Shown here: piece by piece, positions 48,707 to 60,183 of the stretch
Position numbering within the stretch: position 1 is the stretch's first letter
Layout of the letters: every line of letters begins with the position of its first letter
Program-made: the position numbers and the translations under genes
NCBI GenBank assembly: GCA_003426165.1
Contig: QUAH01000004.1
Location: forward strand, 131,501 to 195,500
From: Candidatus Saccharicenans subterraneus
Lineage (GTDB): Bacteria > Acidobacteriota > Aminicenantia > Aminicenantales > Saccharicenantaceae
Reading direction: 5' to 3'
Length of the DNA: 64,000 nt
Notes under the pieces: model-generated
Told to the model about the DNA's origin: nothing
Databases searched by the model: none
Seen by the model: the letters and a program-made list of their open reading frames with translations, nothing else

Positions 48707-49666
48707 ATGCATGGGGTTGGGAAAACCCTGATTTTTCTAACCCTGTCCTTTTCTTGCCTCCGCAGCCTGGTTCCTGGAGTCATCAACCCCCAACAGGTGG
48801 TTAGTGATAGGTCACATCGCCAGCATGAACTATTCTTAGTTTTTGATCCCAAAAACCTCTCTCACAGATTCTCGATTATGTATGCCCAGGCTCTATGGAA
48901 AAGATTTAAGATGTTCAACTTATCCGTATTCGGAATTTCAACCGGAAATTACCAAGACACCGAAGAAGCCAAGCAGCTATGCCGGGTATCTTTTCCCGTA
49001 ATACAGGACGGAGGAATCAAATTTATCGAAAAGCATAACCTGAATGGGTGCTGTGGCGCCACCATGCTTGTCAGTCCTGACCAAGAAATACTTTTAAAGG
49101 AAAGCGAGCTTCTCCCGCCTGAGCTGTTGAGACAACTAATAGAAAGACACCTGAACATGGTTGAAATGCGAGCGGAGCCCCCGGTCTGGTCACCGCCTTT
49201 TATTGAACGGGATATTATTCCCGACTTTATGATTTATGGAATAGATGGGCAAAGAAGGACCCTATCTGAAGAGTTAAAAAAATTAAACATTCTCACATTT
49301 TTTTCTTCATATTCTTCCTGCCTTTCCTGCAAACATGTGAGCCGGCTTGAGACGCTCCGGAAAATTTCCACGAATGCGGGTGATGGCCCCTTCCTCAGTG
49401 TTTTTTTCATGGAGCCTTTTTCTGTGAATGACGTCAAGACAATTAGAACCTCCCGGGGGTGGAATTTCCCTACATATTTGATTCAAAACTTCATGCCAGA
49501 AGAGAACATTTTTATAACAGAGGAAAGATTAAAGTGTGATCCCTGGTCTGTTCTTATCGATGATAACAGGGTGGTTATCTGGTCTGAATATCCGGGATTC
49601 TCAGAAGAAAGGATAATTAAAGAAATAAACCAGAGAATTAGTAAATTAAAAACGAAGCTGAAATGA
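48707..49666 (+). CDS. Exported tandem thioredoxin-like protein (second domain with CLSC motif)
   Basis: N-terminal hydrophobic segment; GATMLVSPDQEILLKESELLPPELLRQLIERHL; IIPDFMIYGIDGQRRTLSEELKKLNILTFFSSYSSCLSCKHVSRLETL. Confidence 0.7.
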   Translation: MHGVGKTLIFLTLSFSCLRSLVPGVINPQQVVSDRSHRQHELFLVFDPKNLSHRFSIMYAQALWKRFKMFNLSVFGISTGNYQDTEEAKQLCRVSFPVIQDGGIKFIEKHNLNGCCGATMLVSPDQEILLKESELLPPELLRQLIERHLNMVEMRAEPPVWSPPFIERDIIPDFMIYGIDGQRRTLSEELKKLNILTFFSSYSSCLSCKHVSRLETLRKISTNAGDGPFLSVFFMEPFSVNDVKTIRTSRGWNFPTYLIQNFMPEENIFITEERLKCDPWSVLIDDNRVVIWSEYPGFSEERIIKEINQRISKLKTKLK

Positions 49667-50757
49667 TAAAACGTAGAAGACCAAGCTTTTATATACCCTA
49701 TCCATTCATCATGTTATTTTTCTGTCTTTCCACTTCCTGCCACCAGGAAAACCCTGTGCCGGGGGGCCGCAACTTACCAGAAATGGTCATCGCGGCCCGG
49801 ATATTTTTGGATCTACAGACCCTGGGTACAGACTTCGAAATTTCCCGGACTTTTTTTCAGACCAAGCTATTCCACATGACCGAAGATTTAACCGCATACC
49901 TGATTGATTCTAACAGGCACAGGATCCTGGAAATTGATAGGGAGGGGAGGCTAAGAAGAGTAATTGGGGGTATAGGTCAGAGAGAGATAGATTTGTACTA
50001 TCCCGTGGCGGTCACCGCAAACGATAAGATGTTGGCCGTCATAAACAACTCCGGTGGAGAGATAAAAATATTCGATCGGTTTGCCCCAAAGATAAGGGTG
50101 ATATCCAGGAAAGAAACCTATTTCCTTCCCTCACTCATCATCGGCCAGGAAAATGAATTGATTGCGCCGGCGAGAAAGGTTACCCGGTCTATCGCCGAGA
50201 TGAATGAGGAACCCATTTTCTCCATATTTGATTTCAATTTCAACCAAATCCGCACTTTTGGTAAAGCCATAAAATGTTCCTCCCACATAGCTCACCTTCA
50301 CTTTAACCTGGTTGAGCTGTTTGCTGATGGGCAGATCATCTACGGTGCTTATGCCTGCCTGCCGATACTATTCGCCTTTGACCGGCATACTGGAAAGGAG
50401 CTATTCAAAAGGGACCTGCGCCTATCAGATATTCCTGAGATTAACCGCGCCCTGGAACGAGAAAGAGAGATCATGGCTGACACGCCGGAAAAACAGAATA
50501 AACCAAACCAGATCCGGCTGGTCAGAATGAACAGAGGGATTGGAGTTTATAAGGGGTCCATCTACTACCTTGGGTATGAGAAATTTCTACTGTTCGGCCC
50601 GCAGGCCGAGTTCCTCGGAACGCTCAAGATAACTCTGAATGACCAAGATATAACCTCTTATATAGATTGCTTTGTCATTTTGCCGGCCGGAAGGATGTTT
50701 GGCCTGGCGACAAGGCCGGAAAACCGGCAGCCCATAATCTTCGAGGCTGATTTATGA
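49663..50757 (+). CDS. Putative 6-bladed beta-propeller (lipo)protein
   Basis: Signal ending in LSTSC; AYLIDSNRHRILEIDREGRLRRVIGGIGQREIDLYYPVAVTAN repeated blade pattern; overlaps the upstream stop. Confidence 0.72.
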   Translation: MIKRRRPSFYIPYPFIMLFFCLSTSCHQENPVPGGRNLPEMVIAARIFLDLQTLGTDFEISRTFFQTKLFHMTEDLTAYLIDSNRHRILEIDREGRLRRVIGGIGQREIDLYYPVAVTANDKMLAVINNSGGEIKIFDRFAPKIRVISRKETYFLPSLIIGQENELIAPARKVTRSIAEMNEEPIFSIFDFNFNQIRTFGKAIKCSSHIAHLHFNLVELFADGQIIYGAYACLPILFAFDRHTGKELFKRDLRLSDIPEINRALEREREIMADTPEKQNKPNQIRLVRMNRGIGVYKGSIYYLGYEKFLLFGPQAEFLGTLKITLNDQDITSYIDCFVILPAGRMFGLATRPENRQPIIFEADL

Positions 50758-50785
50758 ACTTATAATTTCATTAAGGAGGGTTAAC

Positions 50786-51064
50786 ATGCCAAAATTTAAG
50801 CGGCTGGCGATACCAATTCTCATCGTCAGCTCACTCATTGCTGGCTTTTTCTTCACAGTCAGTCGGCCCGCTCTTAGCTGCGGCATTAATTTCTTATGCG
50901 GGGACGGGACCTTGCTTTTCTGCGAAACTTTTGGAAATTGCGGCGGACATGAGGTCTGTGGTTATTACAGGTATTATTCGGGAGGGCCCATAAGAGGTAT
51001 TTTCTGTGAGTGCGGCGGAGCCTGGTGGGGCTCATATTGTGAGGCCGTGCCTCCGATGGTGTAA
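50786..51064 (+). CDS. Secreted small 8-cysteine peptide/mini-protein precursor
   Basis: 92 aa, excellent SD (AAGGAGGGTTAACATG), signal peptide LAIPILIVSSLIAGFFFTVSRPALS, then 8 Cys in CGINFLCGDGTLLFCETFGNCGGHEVCGYYRYYSGGPIRGIFCECGGAWWGSYCEAVPPMV. Confidence 0.82.
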   Translation: MPKFKRLAIPILIVSSLIAGFFFTVSRPALSCGINFLCGDGTLLFCETFGNCGGHEVCGYYRYYSGGPIRGIFCECGGAWWGSYCEAVPPMV

Positions 51065-51107: not shown

Positions 51108-52205
51108 ATGCGGCAGAGGGGAGCGGTACTTATTGCGATCATTTTCGTTGCCATGCTCATAGGTATTGGATTTTTTAAATTGCACCAATCTACGCAGTTT
51201 GAAGAACTAGAATTTATAAAGGAAGGCGAGGAGGAGATCTTTATAAACACGAGAAAATCGGGAGCCAAACTCATCCAGGAATTTTATCTAAGCCGATGGG
51301 GAAAATATTATGTGCTGGAACAGGATAAAATTACCGAATGGGACGCCAGTGGAAATTTATGCGGAGAAATTGGATCAACCGGCCAAGGGCCGGGCGAGTT
51401 TACAGGGATAATTGGCATGGGGGTTAATGAAGAAAAGATATTCATCAACGACCAGGGAAGGAAAATAATAATATACTCAAGAAAAGGAGAGTTCTTGAGA
51501 CAATTCCCACTGGACACATTTCTCGCGGGCAATTTTGCCGCCAGCAATGATGATGAAATAATAGGTGTAACCTTATCAAGCACTGAATCAGGCAAGATTG
51601 GTCAAATCACCGGATTAGATGCAAAGGGAAGAATAAAATATTTTCTTCAGGAACCTAAGGATCACGGCCTCTGGACTTTGAGGTTCAGTAAAGAAGGGGG
51701 AGTGGCGGGTGGGATTATTAACCCCGAGAACCTCCCGGCTTTTATCATATGCCCTGCCGGAAATGGAGTGTGGTTAGCTCACAACTCGCAGTACTTTATC
51801 AGGTTTTACGATTATTCTGGAAACCTGGTCAGAACAATTGAGGGGCCTCCTTTTTCGAGGGAGACAACCCCGGATATTTCAAGTCAAAGGACAAGAAATG
51901 ATGTCCATCGTAGAAACCCAGCGCCTCTTTTCAGTGCATTGATTTTGGATGAATCGAATAGGTTATATGTGATAACCACATCTCGGAAAAGGCGCAAACA
52001 AAAAATCTACATAGCAGACATTTATAGTGAAGAAGGCAACTATTTACTATCCGCTAAGTGCCAGGCCAAACCGAAATTGATAAATAATGGATTCTTGTAT
52101 TTCATCTCGGAAGACCGGGAAGGTTGGCCGGTGATAAAAAGGATCAAGATAAAGAATTACCATGAGATTCTTTCAAGAAGGCCAACCGGGATTCATAAAA
52201 ATTAA
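51108..52205 (+). CDS. Membrane-anchored 6-bladed beta-propeller protein
   Basis: N-terminal TM; GSTGQGPGEFTGIIGMGVNEEKIFINDQGRKIIIYSRKGEFLRQF (GxGPGEF hallmark). Confidence 0.85.
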   Translation: MRQRGAVLIAIIFVAMLIGIGFFKLHQSTQFEELEFIKEGEEEIFINTRKSGAKLIQEFYLSRWGKYYVLEQDKITEWDASGNLCGEIGSTGQGPGEFTGIIGMGVNEEKIFINDQGRKIIIYSRKGEFLRQFPLDTFLAGNFAASNDDEIIGVTLSSTESGKIGQITGLDAKGRIKYFLQEPKDHGLWTLRFSKEGGVAGGIINPENLPAFIICPAGNGVWLAHNSQYFIRFYDYSGNLVRTIEGPPFSRETTPDISSQRTRNDVHRRNPAPLFSALILDESNRLYVITTSRKRRKQKIYIADIYSEEGNYLLSAKCQAKPKLINNGFLYFISEDREGWPVIKRIKIKNYHEILSRRPTGIHKN

Positions 52206-52271
52206 ACTGACCTTGTCGGCCAAAATTCTACTTCAATAATTGACACAGATACGGAATTTGATAAATTATGG

Positions 52272-52422
52272 ATTAGGGTTTAAGAAGCAGGGAAGTCCGT
52301 GAGAGGCGGACACAGCCCCCGCTACTGTAACTGGCGACGAATCCCTGATGCAGCCACTGCTCTCCGGAGTGGGAAGGCCAGGGAGGAGGAGGACCCGGGA
52401 GTCAGGATACCTGCCCTCAACC
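52272..52422 (+). promoter_or_regulatory. Cobalamin (B12) riboswitch
   Basis: GGGAAGTCCGTGAGAGGCGGACACAGCCCCCGCTACTGTAACTGGCGACGA...GCCACTG...GGGAAGGCCAGGGAGG...GGGAGTCAGGATACCTGCC; upstream of a TonB receptor. Confidence 0.94.
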
Positions 52423-52501
52423 CGGCAGCCTCTCTTTTCTTCGGGCGGAAGAAAAGAGGAGCGGCTCAGAAATTTTATCAAGCGGGGGGAAAGGAAGATG
52501 A

Positions 52502-54454
52502 ATGAAACGAAACCTTTCTGCCCGGTTACCCATCCTGCTTTCTCTTTTTCTCTGTCTTCTCAGCAACCTTTCAGCAGCGGCGCTGGCTGATGACGAAACC
52601 CAGCCGCCAAAAATCCAGCACGAGATAGTGGTCACGGCCACCCGCCTGGAAACCCCGGTCAAAGAAACCGCCTCGGCCATCAGCCTGGTCCAAGCTGAAA
52701 AGCTGCCACCGGGTGCCACCGTCAGGCCGGAGAGCGTTTTTGCGGGCCTCCCGGGCATCTTTTTCATCCAGACCGGCCTGGCCGGTGGGTCTGGTTCACT
52801 TTTTATCCGCGGCGCCAACTCGGAACATGCGGTCTTCATGATTGACGGACTGGAACTTAACGACCCGGTCTCCCCTTCCCGCTCTTTCAACTTCAACCTG
52901 TTTAACCTGGCTCTTATCGAACGGGTGGAAGTCCTGCGCGGACCGCAGAGCACTCTTTACGGCTCTGACGCCCTGGCCGGTGTGGTGAACATGGTCACGG
53001 CCGACCCCGAAAAGAACGAAGCCAGCCTTTCCGGCCTTTTCGGAACTTTCCGGACCGGGCAGGGAAATTTCAGGCTGGCCCGGGTCTGGCCAAACTTCTT
53101 TCTTCAGGCTGAATTCAACACCTTCACCACGGCCGGCATTTCCCAGGCCGGGAGCCGCTATCCGGGGAACAGCGAGGCCGATGGCTACAGCCAGCAGAGC
53201 CTGGCCCTTAAGATAAGCTACCGCTTCTCTCCGGACTTTCGCCTCAACTGGCAGACCCGCGGCCTGCTCGGCCGGGCCGAACTCGACACCTTCGGCGGAC
53301 CTTACGGAGATGACCCCAACTCTCTCCAGAAATCCCGCTTCCTCTTTAACCGCCTGGAGCTCGACGGTTTTTTTCTCGGCCATCGCTGGCAGCAAAAACT
53401 GGTCTTCGGCCTGGAAGCCGGGCGCCGGGAAAATGACAACCCGGCCGATACGGCCCACCCGGACGAAGGAGATTCAGCCCTTTACCGGAGCCGGCTCTTC
53501 AAGATTGACTGGCAGAACAATTTCTTCCTGGCTCCGAACCATACCCTCGTTTTCGGGGTCGATTTCCGCCAGGAACAGGGCAGCTCCTCTTATCTCTATT
53601 TCAGCCCCTGGGGAAACTACGAAAGTAGCTTCCCGCAGAAAACCGCCTCCCTGCTTGGCCTCTATCTCCAGGACCAGTGGAAACCCTGGAAGAGGCTGTC
53701 TCTGACCGCGGGCCTTCGCTCTGACCATCACCGGCGTTTTGGCCGCGCCCTGACCTTCAGGGCGGCAGCCTGCCTGGACCTGCCTGAAATCGGGGCCAGG
53801 CTGAAAAGCACCGTGGGCAGCGGCTTCAAGGCCCCTTCTCTCTACCAGCTCTTCGCCCCGGCGGATTATTATGGACCGGTCGGCAACCCTGACCTTCAAC
53901 CGGAAAGAAACCTGGGCTGGGATGCCGGGATTGAGAAGGAATTCGGCAACAGCCTGGCCCTCTCTCTCACCTATTTTGAAACCCGTTACCGCAACCTGAT
54001 CCAATTCTACTTTGGCTCTGGCTACCAGAATGTCGGCCGGGCTATAAGCCGCGGTCTGGAAGCCTCACTGGAAGCCAGGTTATTTAAGAATGGAAACATC
54101 AGCGCCGGCTGGACTCATCTCAGCTCCCGGGACCTGGACACTGGCAGCCCGCTCCTTCGCCGGCCGGAGGACAGCTTCAATGTTAGCTTTAACCTATCCC
54201 ATAAATCAATAAGCCTGGCGGCCGAGCTGAACTATATCGGTTCCCGGCTGGACGTGGACTATTCTTCCTATCCGCCGCAGACTGTAAAGCTCAAAGCGGC
54301 CACCATCGCCAACCTGCTTTTAAGCTATGACCTCAAAGAACCCCTGACCCTTTTCCTCCACGTCCAGAACCTTTTTAATACCCGCTACGAGCTCGTTTAT
54401 GGCTACGGTTCGCCGGGCACTACAATTTCCACCGGATTTAAATTAAAATTGTGA
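52502..54454 (+). CDS. btuB: TonB-dependent vitamin B12 receptor BtuB-like
   Basis: HEIVVTATRLETPVKETASAISLV TonB box/plug; RVEVLRGPQSTLYGSDALAGVVNMVT; riboswitch upstream. Confidence 0.92.
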   Translation: MKRNLSARLPILLSLFLCLLSNLSAAALADDETQPPKIQHEIVVTATRLETPVKETASAISLVQAEKLPPGATVRPESVFAGLPGIFFIQTGLAGGSGSLFIRGANSEHAVFMIDGLELNDPVSPSRSFNFNLFNLALIERVEVLRGPQSTLYGSDALAGVVNMVTADPEKNEASLSGLFGTFRTGQGNFRLARVWPNFFLQAEFNTFTTAGISQAGSRYPGNSEADGYSQQSLALKISYRFSPDFRLNWQTRGLLGRAELDTFGGPYGDDPNSLQKSRFLFNRLELDGFFLGHRWQQKLVFGLEAGRRENDNPADTAHPDEGDSALYRSRLFKIDWQNNFFLAPNHTLVFGVDFRQEQGSSSYLYFSPWGNYESSFPQKTASLLGLYLQDQWKPWKRLSLTAGLRSDHHRRFGRALTFRAAACLDLPEIGARLKSTVGSGFKAPSLYQLFAPADYYGPVGNPDLQPERNLGWDAGIEKEFGNSLALSLTYFETRYRNLIQFYFGSGYQNVGRAISRGLEASLEARLFKNGNISAGWTHLSSRDLDTGSPLLRRPEDSFNVSFNLSHKSISLAAELNYIGSRLDVDYSSYPPQTVKLKAATIANLLLSYDLKEPLTLFLHVQNLFNTRYELVYGYGSPGTTISTGFKLKL

Positions 54455-58661: not shown

Positions 58662-59528
58662 TCAGATAACCTTAATACGCCTTACGATATCCAGAAAAAA
58701 TTCTCGTGACCAGACTTCCAAGGCAGCCGGATTGCTGACGAAGGGCTCCACCTCCCTCTTTATTTGCTCCACATCCACCGATTTTACCCTGCCAATCAGC
58801 AATTCTCGAAAAGTGCTCTCGTCCAGGGGACTTGATCCCTTCCAGTGACCGGTCTGGCGCATCCTCTGCTCTAAATGCGATAATCTCAACTCTGGGTGAT
58901 GAGCGGTAAACCAGACCAGGTCATACCAGTCCCGGCCCTTGAGCCGGCTTTTCCATTGACGGCAGAGAACCGCGTGCATCTTGCCCGCGAACATGTCCGG
59001 CAGGGTAAAGGTCCTTACGGAAAACGGAATCGGTTTTAGAAGATAACGCATCTCAGTTGAGAATCCGGGCGGCGGGGTCACGTCGACCTCGAGCTTAATT
59101 TTTAGCACCTGGTTAGGCGGGATCTGCTTAACAAGTTCAGGCTTAATTCCCACAGAGATCATCTGCTCACGGGTATCGGTTTTAAGAAAGGCCGACTGAA
59201 CGGTTGTTTTCTCCTTTTTTGTTTTGCTTTCAACTTCAACAGAAAACCCAAAGGAAAGCAGCTCCCGCTTCAGGGCCTGGCCATAATCGGCCAGGCAGAA
59301 AGCCGGGTCCGCCTCGAGGAGGGAGAAATCCAGGTCCTCGGAAAACCGGTCGATCCCATAAATTATCCTCAGGGCCGATCCCCCATAAAACGCGGCCCTT
59401 TCAAAAAACTTGCTTCTCCACAGCCCGAGAAGGGCCACCTGTTGAATTATTTCGCGCAAGGCCCAGAGCGAATCGCCCGGGGATTTAATTTCATATTCCC
59501 CCAGCATTTGCCTGACGGCTTCATTCAT
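58662..59528 (-). CDS. AbiEii/AbiGii-type nucleotidyltransferase toxin
   Basis: FYGGSALRIIYGIDRFSEDLDFSLLEAD (GGxxLR...DxDF nucleotidyltransferase signature); MFAGKMHAVLCRQWKSRLKGRDWYDLVWF. Confidence 0.93.
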   Translation of the reverse strand: MNEAVRQMLGEYEIKSPGDSLWALREIIQQVALLGLWRSKFFERAAFYGGSALRIIYGIDRFSEDLDFSLLEADPAFCLADYGQALKRELLSFGFSVEVESKTKKEKTTVQSAFLKTDTREQMISVGIKPELVKQIPPNQVLKIKLEVDVTPPPGFSTEMRYLLKPIPFSVRTFTLPDMFAGKMHAVLCRQWKSRLKGRDWYDLVWFTAHHPELRLSHLEQRMRQTGHWKGSSPLDESTFRELLIGRVKSVDVEQIKREVEPFVSNPAALEVWSREFFLDIVRRIKVI

Positions 59529-59529
59529 T

Positions 59530-60183
59530 TTATTTCTCCCGGTTCGCGGCCAGTTTTTTTACCATGGCAGCCAGGTACCTAAGCTTGCGGGAACGATACC
59601 CGGCGGCAAATTCTTCAAGTTTGGCCACTGAGAAAGAACGCAGCGCCTCCAGATCTATTCTCAAATCTTCCTCGAGAAAACGAGCGACTTCCCTGGTTGA
59701 ATTGAAGGCGAGCCCGCGCAGGGAAGCGACCTTATCAGCCAGGGCCTTCTCGGGAATGGCAATTAGATAGGCCTGGTTATTATCGGCCTCAACCCTGGTC
59801 AGGCCATTTATGTAAGCACCATGCGGTATCTGTCTGTAAGTGAAAAGACCAACCGGCGTGGCAAATCGGCGAGACCGATTGGGGGTAACCGAGGTCAGGA
59901 CTTCAACCTTTTCCGGTATGAGGCCGTAATAGGCCAGGGCATAATCAAGAGAGAGATAGGATGGGCCATATATAAGGTTGGCCAGCAGTTCCCTGGAATA
60001 GGCATGCTTACGATACTTTTCGCCAAATACGTAAAGCCCCTTCTTAACCCTTATAATTATCCCGCTCCTCAGCAGTTCTGTAATCTTATCCCTGGGAGAT
60101 GACAGGCTGCCGAGCGTACTGGTTAGAGTCTGGTAGTCAAATATTTCAGTCTGAATTCGGCTTCGCAGCTCAAGCGCGTTCAT
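59530..60183 (-). CDS. AbiEi-type antitoxin (winged-helix transcriptional regulator)
   Basis: LIRVKKGLYVFG-type motif (IIIRVKKGLYVFGEKYRK), YLSLDYALAYYGLIPE, TSVTPNRSRRFATPVGLFTYRQIP; directly upstream of the toxin gene. Confidence 0.9.
   Translation of the reverse strand: MNALELRSRIQTEIFDYQTLTSTLGSLSSPRDKITELLRSGIIIRVKKGLYVFGEKYRKHAYSRELLANLIYGPSYLSLDYALAYYGLIPEKVEVLTSVTPNRSRRFATPVGLFTYRQIPHGAYINGLTRVEADNNQAYLIAIPEKALADKVASLRGLAFNSTREVARFLEEDLRIDLEALRSFSVAKLEEFAAGYRSRKLRYLAAMVKKLAANREK

Follow-up and report, generated by a model that had tools for sequence, protein, structure and literature searches.

The NVEALA proteins of Bacteroidota (PF14055) are small, exported and cysteine-containing, and are encoded beside six-bladed propeller lipoproteins; we used them as a lead only, and our literature search found no paper on them. 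In the methylamine and quinohemoprotein amine dehydrogenases (MauA/MauB and QhpB/QhpC), a small exported crosslinked subunit is paired with a propeller subunit, and the Mau system also includes the thioredoxin-like MauD and the membrane protein MauE. We compared these systems with a locus of Candidatus Saccharicenans subterraneus (phylum Acidobacteriota, order Aminicenantales) in a 64,000-nucleotide stretch, here called the window (contig QUAH01000004.1, positions 131,501 to 195,500 of the forward strand), of its 2.9 Mb genome. The locus is a co-directional run of four genes on the + strand, encoding a tandem thioredoxin-like protein, a beta-propeller (PROP1), a 92-residue peptide with eight cysteines (50786-51064, stop codon included) and a second beta-propeller (PROP2). 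The leader of this peptide does not carry the NVEALA motif, and no peptide that we scanned matched PF14055 (hmmscan, E up to 10). The locus also differs from the amine dehydrogenases, since there was no sequence match, the window propeller is DUF5128-like and no cofactor-making enzyme was recognised in the window operon; the peptide matched none of the Pfam or NCBIfam profiles of the small subunits MauA and QhpC. Among candidate families of ribosomally synthesized and post-translationally modified peptides (RiPPs) from Streptomyces (decRiPPter, PMC7794033), a MauE homologue lies beside precursors with at least 8 cysteines, and its authors read it as modifying the precursor. These candidates share a small cysteine-rich precursor beside MauE with the cassette type described here, but they come from another phylum, the text of PMC7794033 mentions neither a propeller nor a thioredoxin, and the window locus itself is without MauE.

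The cassette thus resembles known systems in outline, with a real chance of being its own kind; neither it nor the mini-protein family is described in any profile, PDB sequence or paper covered by our searches. With moderate confidence, we read the peptide as a dedicated propeller partner that is exported by Sec and disulfide-bonded outside the cytoplasm, with the co-encoded thioredoxin-like protein handling its disulfides, and as one instance of a cassette type widespread in Aminicenantales.

The peptide gene and its conservation

Judged from its sequence, the open reading frame (ORF) is a real gene. It has a strong ribosome-binding site (AAGGAGG, 50773-50779) 6 nt upstream of the ATG and closes with a stop codon at 51062-51064. 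Residues 1-31 (50786-50878) form a putative signal peptide with the n-region KFKR, a hydrophobic core at residues 7-25 and cleavage near ALS/C, called by rule from the sequence. The predicted mature mini-protein of 61 residues (50879-51061) is exactly the part, residues 32-92, quoted in a preliminary description of this DNA; its cysteines, at residues 32, 38, 46, 52, 58, 74, 76 and 85, are spaced 5-7-5-5-15-1-8. We found 0 comparable ORFs (ATG-started, 60-130 residues, with a hydrophobic N-terminus and at least 8 cysteines after it) in 30 Markov-shuffled windows.

The peptide was 100% identical in two near relatives and 88% identical in a third (L004/L009), from which it was separated by 28 synonymous and 13 non-synonymous changes (dS, synonymous divergence, 0.68; dN, non-synonymous divergence, 0.064). 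In the comparison with the 88% orthologue, dN/dS (omega) was 0.064 for the mature peptide as compared to 0.17 for PROP1, 0.35 for PROP2 (first 170 codons only) and 0.13 for the neighbouring TonB-dependent receptor, so the mature peptide was the most constrained among the locus genes compared. On this low ratio, the gene is under strong purifying selection. The coordinates, ribosome-binding site, conservation and shuffled windows together confirm the ORF with an eight-cysteine mature part that had been proposed, and conservation under purifying selection (dN/dS 0.064 in the mature part) is the opposite of the random substitution that would be seen in a spurious frame.

The 88% orthologue carries C76Y, which leaves 7 cysteines. 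In its genome (G004), a truncated thioredoxin-like gene and a frameshifted PROP2 accompany this loss of a cysteine; the module there looks like a case of decay, with metagenome assembly errors as the alternative cause. Our survey of the genus found the module intact in 3 genomes, decaying in 1 and reduced to a remnant in 2 (G015 and G005), and it was not seen in the remaining inspected genomes of the genus, while the flanking decarboxylase and receptor were retained where the module varies. The state of G004, G015 and G005 would fit a relic, that is, a cassette decaying in the genus whose peptide has no present function. We consider this the least probable of the explanations weighed, as three near relatives retain the whole module, the peptide is under purifying selection and a genome of another genus (G023) has an intact order of thioredoxin-like gene, propeller and peptide.

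Cysteine peptides beside propellers in Aminicenantales

Aminicenantia, which are largely uncultured, occur commonly in sediments, aquifers and oil-associated habitats. In most sampled genomes of the order there are numerous propeller genes with no known function, about 30 at most. We surveyed 96 regions (1.19 Mb) around Aminicenantales propellers from ~95 genomes for exported peptides with at least 3 cysteines. Within 400 bp of a propeller there were 30, all on its strand, and 3 lay beyond 2.5 kb, an enrichment of about 42-fold per kb relative to distant DNA; 2-3 of the 30 are thioredoxin-like proteins or doubtful ORFs (L128, L162). A peptide neighbour was present at 26 of 143 propellers as compared to 12 of 583 other genes (p 2e-11), and some of these 12 genes may adjoin the peptide within the same cassettes. 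A thioredoxin-like gene was found within 2.5 kb of 19 of the 26 propellers with a peptide and of 8 of the 118 without one. Since the thioredoxin hidden Markov model (HMM) had been seeded from peptide loci, we also performed a motif-only test with the seed loci left out, and the difference held (10/17 as compared to 7/118, p 7e-7). In the genome of the window, 8 of the 18 propeller ORFs examined adjoin a same-strand exported cysteine peptide, and all 8 lie within 2.5 kb of a thioredoxin-like gene. The usual orders are peptide-propeller-thioredoxin and thioredoxin-propeller-peptide, the latter as in the window, whose peptide falls within the proposed group (exported peptides of at least 3 cysteines that lie no more than 400 bp from a propeller, are encoded on its strand and have a thioredoxin-like gene in the vicinity). 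The preliminary description had suggested a disulfide-rich toxin, signal or metal-binding peptide, and a free-standing role of this kind is not supported; gene order instead ties the peptide to six-bladed propeller and thioredoxin-like genes, and so suggests a mini-protein that works outside the cytoplasm and depends on a partner.

Peptide type tracked the propeller tree, with 11 changes, while none of 500 shuffles needed fewer than 14. This match would fit an inherited pairing, not necessarily contact. At 28 propeller loci outside the order, we found no convincing adjoining exported cysteine peptide, which suggests that the link is largely confined to Aminicenantales. At one locus from another Acidobacteriota class (L267), a 4-Cys peptide precedes a protein that resembles a propeller and has no Pfam or HMM match.

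Among the propeller-linked peptides, the commonest type has 4 cysteines arranged as two C-x6-C units. Of the 95 Aminicenantales genomes, 82 carry it, and in a phylum sample it occurred in one genome only outside the order. These 4-Cys peptides (for example at L033, L161 and L162) often occur as tandem pairs ~200 bp apart and adjoin propeller, thioredoxin-like and sometimes ABC-2 genes. The other propeller-linked peptides had 4 to 10 cysteines with unrelated spacings. Further uncharacterised frameworks, each in at least two copies (L097, L102 and L127; L146; L145; L030 and L107), include CPC..CGCCPEY, CLCPS..CYC, CDQGK.FCW and GGCGAQSGWxGQDC; the type at L030 and L107, which differs from the window peptide, had a sub-threshold EGF_Teneurin match.

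This diversity of frameworks on a common scaffold, the tandem copies (L209, L161, L162, L145, L033), the genes for an ABC-2-type permease and an ATPase (assigned by sequence) behind 4-Cys cassettes and the patchy presence of the module across the genus are also what one might expect of a peptide secreted as an antagonist (bacteriocin-like) or as a signal. The propeller would then act as its receptor, its carrier or a partner in immunity, with the thioredoxin-like protein as a folding factor. We think this unlikely for the window peptide, and a toxin or signal role is not supported directly. The window operon has no ABC or immunity-like gene, we found no PADLOC, PHROGs or viral-contig match, the mature peptide shows strong constraint in the comparison of species (omega 0.064) and is not diversifying, and its net charge is low, in contrast to most cationic bacteriocins.

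Two peptide loci contain MauE (PF07291): at L028 it is fused to a redoxin-like part, and at L145 to a rhodanese. A paralogous cassette in the same genome as L028 (L027:4077-5306, G000:C12) appears to have lost the MauE-redoxin and peptide genes by deletion relative to L028; there the start of MauE is fused to the propeller, and the upstream AraC-type gene is nearly identical to that at L028. The two MauE loci, and a sister thioredoxin that weakly matches MauD (E 0.049), bear on whether the peptide could be a crosslinked small redox subunit with a Trp80/Trp81 or Cys-Trp cofactor, seated on a propeller subunit and matured by MauD/MauE-like proteins as in methylamine or quinohemoprotein amine dehydrogenase (QHNDH). 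A small exported protein bearing Cys and Trp does occur together with a propeller and a thioredoxin-like protein, and QHNDH has a ~9-kDa crosslinked gamma-subunit (PMC7876137). We nevertheless regard this as very improbable. Pfam searches matched none of the amine-dehydrogenase families, we recognised neither MauG nor a radical SAM or c-type haem gene in the operon, and no single Trp position is conserved across the peptide relatives.

Relatives of the window peptide

Searches of Pfam, NCBIfam, PHROGs, PADLOC and PDB sequences, and of viral contigs, found no relative of the window peptide, and PADLOC gave no anti-phage defence match in the operon. The absence of a recognised domain, as initially reported, was therefore borne out. 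The proposal of a novel ribosomal peptide family holds in so far as this is a new, conserved, exported cysteine-rich family without a library match; we found no support for its extension to a modified RiPP among the operon genes and the scanned neighbours, which are part of the window's genes and among which no modifying enzyme was recognised. No EGF-like or knottin HMM matched the window peptide (E up to 10). Its C-terminal C-x-C-x8-C fits what we take to be the PROSITE EGF_1 pattern, and this motif after three cysteines fits the spacing of both the window and the G023 peptides; it is common by chance once the cysteines are fixed. An EGF-like reading was dropped, since 22% of cysteine-fixed shuffles fit the pattern while 0 of 4 sequences from G051, G070 and G042 did.

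The best evidence for relatives was gene order. In G023, from another genus of the same family (L255), we found the same succession of thioredoxin-like protein, propeller and 8-Cys peptide, with homologous propeller (23% identity, E 7e-17) and thioredoxin-like protein (22%, E 3e-9). The G023 peptide lies 12 bp behind its propeller and has a cysteine spacing of 5-4-4-4-8-1-8 as compared to 5-7-5-5-15-1-8 in the window. Similarly, the nearest neighbour of PROP1 in the propeller tree was this G023 propeller. In G037, from another family of the order, the order is thioredoxin-propeller-peptide-propeller, partly decayed, and the peptide (CGGTQVAFCETWGYC against CGDGTLLFCETFGNC) overlaps the 3' end of a propeller that is without its last third. 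Pairwise shuffles supported similarity between the window and G037 peptides (p 0.003), between G037 and G023 (0.001) and between the window and G051a (<0.001, even with cysteines fixed); they gave no direct support for the window-G023 pair.

Profile A1 drew in a second group (G051, G044, G070, G042) in which the order is propeller, peptide and a large exported protein resembling a VWFA-related protein. Profile A7 (G023 and G037) found no further clean members, and a weak G001 match (L006) was rejected as it lies within a long ORF of a membrane-assembly-like protein. In G044 (L169:1501-1800, on two contigs), there is an in-frame TGA where the 13-Cys peptide of G051 has Trp, which may be either a nonsense mutation or something odder. 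The even number of cysteines given in the preliminary description is correct for the window peptide (8) and does not hold throughout the family, as the 88% orthologue has 7 and the proposed relatives have 8 to 13.

The position of Cys32 directly after the signal sequence (PALSC), the good lipobox VSGC in G037 and the odd cysteine count that C76Y gives the orthologue could also point to a lipopeptide with Cys32 lipidated, or to a metal- or haem-binding peptide with the propeller as a mere neighbour. We consider this improbable. The lipobox at the window cleavage site is a weak reading and is not conserved (EELC in G023), the operon has no metal-transport gene apart from the separate B12 receptor unit, and the linkage to propeller and thioredoxin-like genes would be left without explanation.

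Organisation of the module and its proposed role

The first gene of the run (48707-49666) encodes an extracytoplasmic tandem thioredoxin-like protein of 319 residues, assigned from its sequence and our home-built HMM. The N-terminus of this protein is hydrophobic, and its first and second halves carry a CC site and a CLSC (CxxC) site, respectively. Its match to AhpC-TSA (PF00578, residues 59-128) was weak and below the cut-off; the G037 homologue matched the same family at 3.5e-9. PROP1 (49663-50757, 364 residues, exported) had no Pfam propeller match itself and matched an HMM made from the DUF5128-type propellers found elsewhere in the genome (E 1.6e-31). PROP2 (51108-52205, 365 residues, with an N-terminal hydrophobic segment) matched the DUF5128 six-bladed propeller profile PF17170 at 33.7 bits as compared to a cut-off of 22.9. 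The first two genes overlap by 4 bp, and 28 bp and 43 bp separate the peptide from PROP1 and PROP2, respectively; the four genes are presumably co-transcribed. A cobalamin riboswitch (52259-52432, + strand, RF00174, 108 bits) and the BtuB-like TonB-dependent receptor downstream of it (52502-54454, + strand) are the next unit, which bounds the module downstream and lies outside it. Elsewhere in the window, at 58662-60183 on the - strand, there is an AbiEii-type nucleotidyltransferase toxin gene (PF08843), and the gene upstream of it resembles an AbiEi partner with no Pfam match at 1e-5.

In the partner reading that we favour, the peptide would be exported by Sec, acquire its disulfides outside the cytoplasm and dock on PROP1, possibly on PROP2 too, as a small subunit or ligand. 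The tandem thioredoxin-like protein would form, shuffle or proof-read these disulfides, and the propeller-peptide complex outside the cell could serve in sensing, binding or electron transfer. The cassette type would then comprise a propeller scaffold, an interchangeable cysteine-rich mini-protein and a thiol-disulfide enzyme, joined in two cases by a MauE-like membrane protein.

Several points weigh against this. We infer the disulfides and the binding to the propeller from sequence data, and the AlphaFold2 models were too poor for use (pLDDT, the predicted local confidence, 58 for the peptide and 42 for PROP2). A peptide lies beside 32 of 175 propellers and about 80% have none; such a peptide is thus no general subunit of propellers. 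The module is dispensable, since it is decayed or absent elsewhere in the genus. The likeness of the window peptide to those of G051, G070 and G042 was marginal by profile, with ~2% of shuffles scoring equally high. In the order-wide survey, peptide loci supplied the seed of the thioredoxin HMM, the peptide criteria were fixed after the first examples had been seen, and the p-values treat loci as independent although loci in related genomes are not.

More tentatively, there may be an undescribed system throughout Aminicenantales in which secreted six-bladed propellers are loaded with diverse mini-proteins that are locked by disulfides, can be interchanged and have a thiol-disulfide enzyme each. 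This would be a modular extracellular binding or redox apparatus in which the scaffold is shared and the cysteine-rich subunits vary. The locus and its counterparts supply new disulfide-rich mini-protein frameworks, which profile libraries miss because of the fast divergence of the peptides. With a subset of the propellers linked to dedicated cysteine-rich mini-proteins and to thiol-disulfide enzymes, there is a first idea of propeller function that can be tested.
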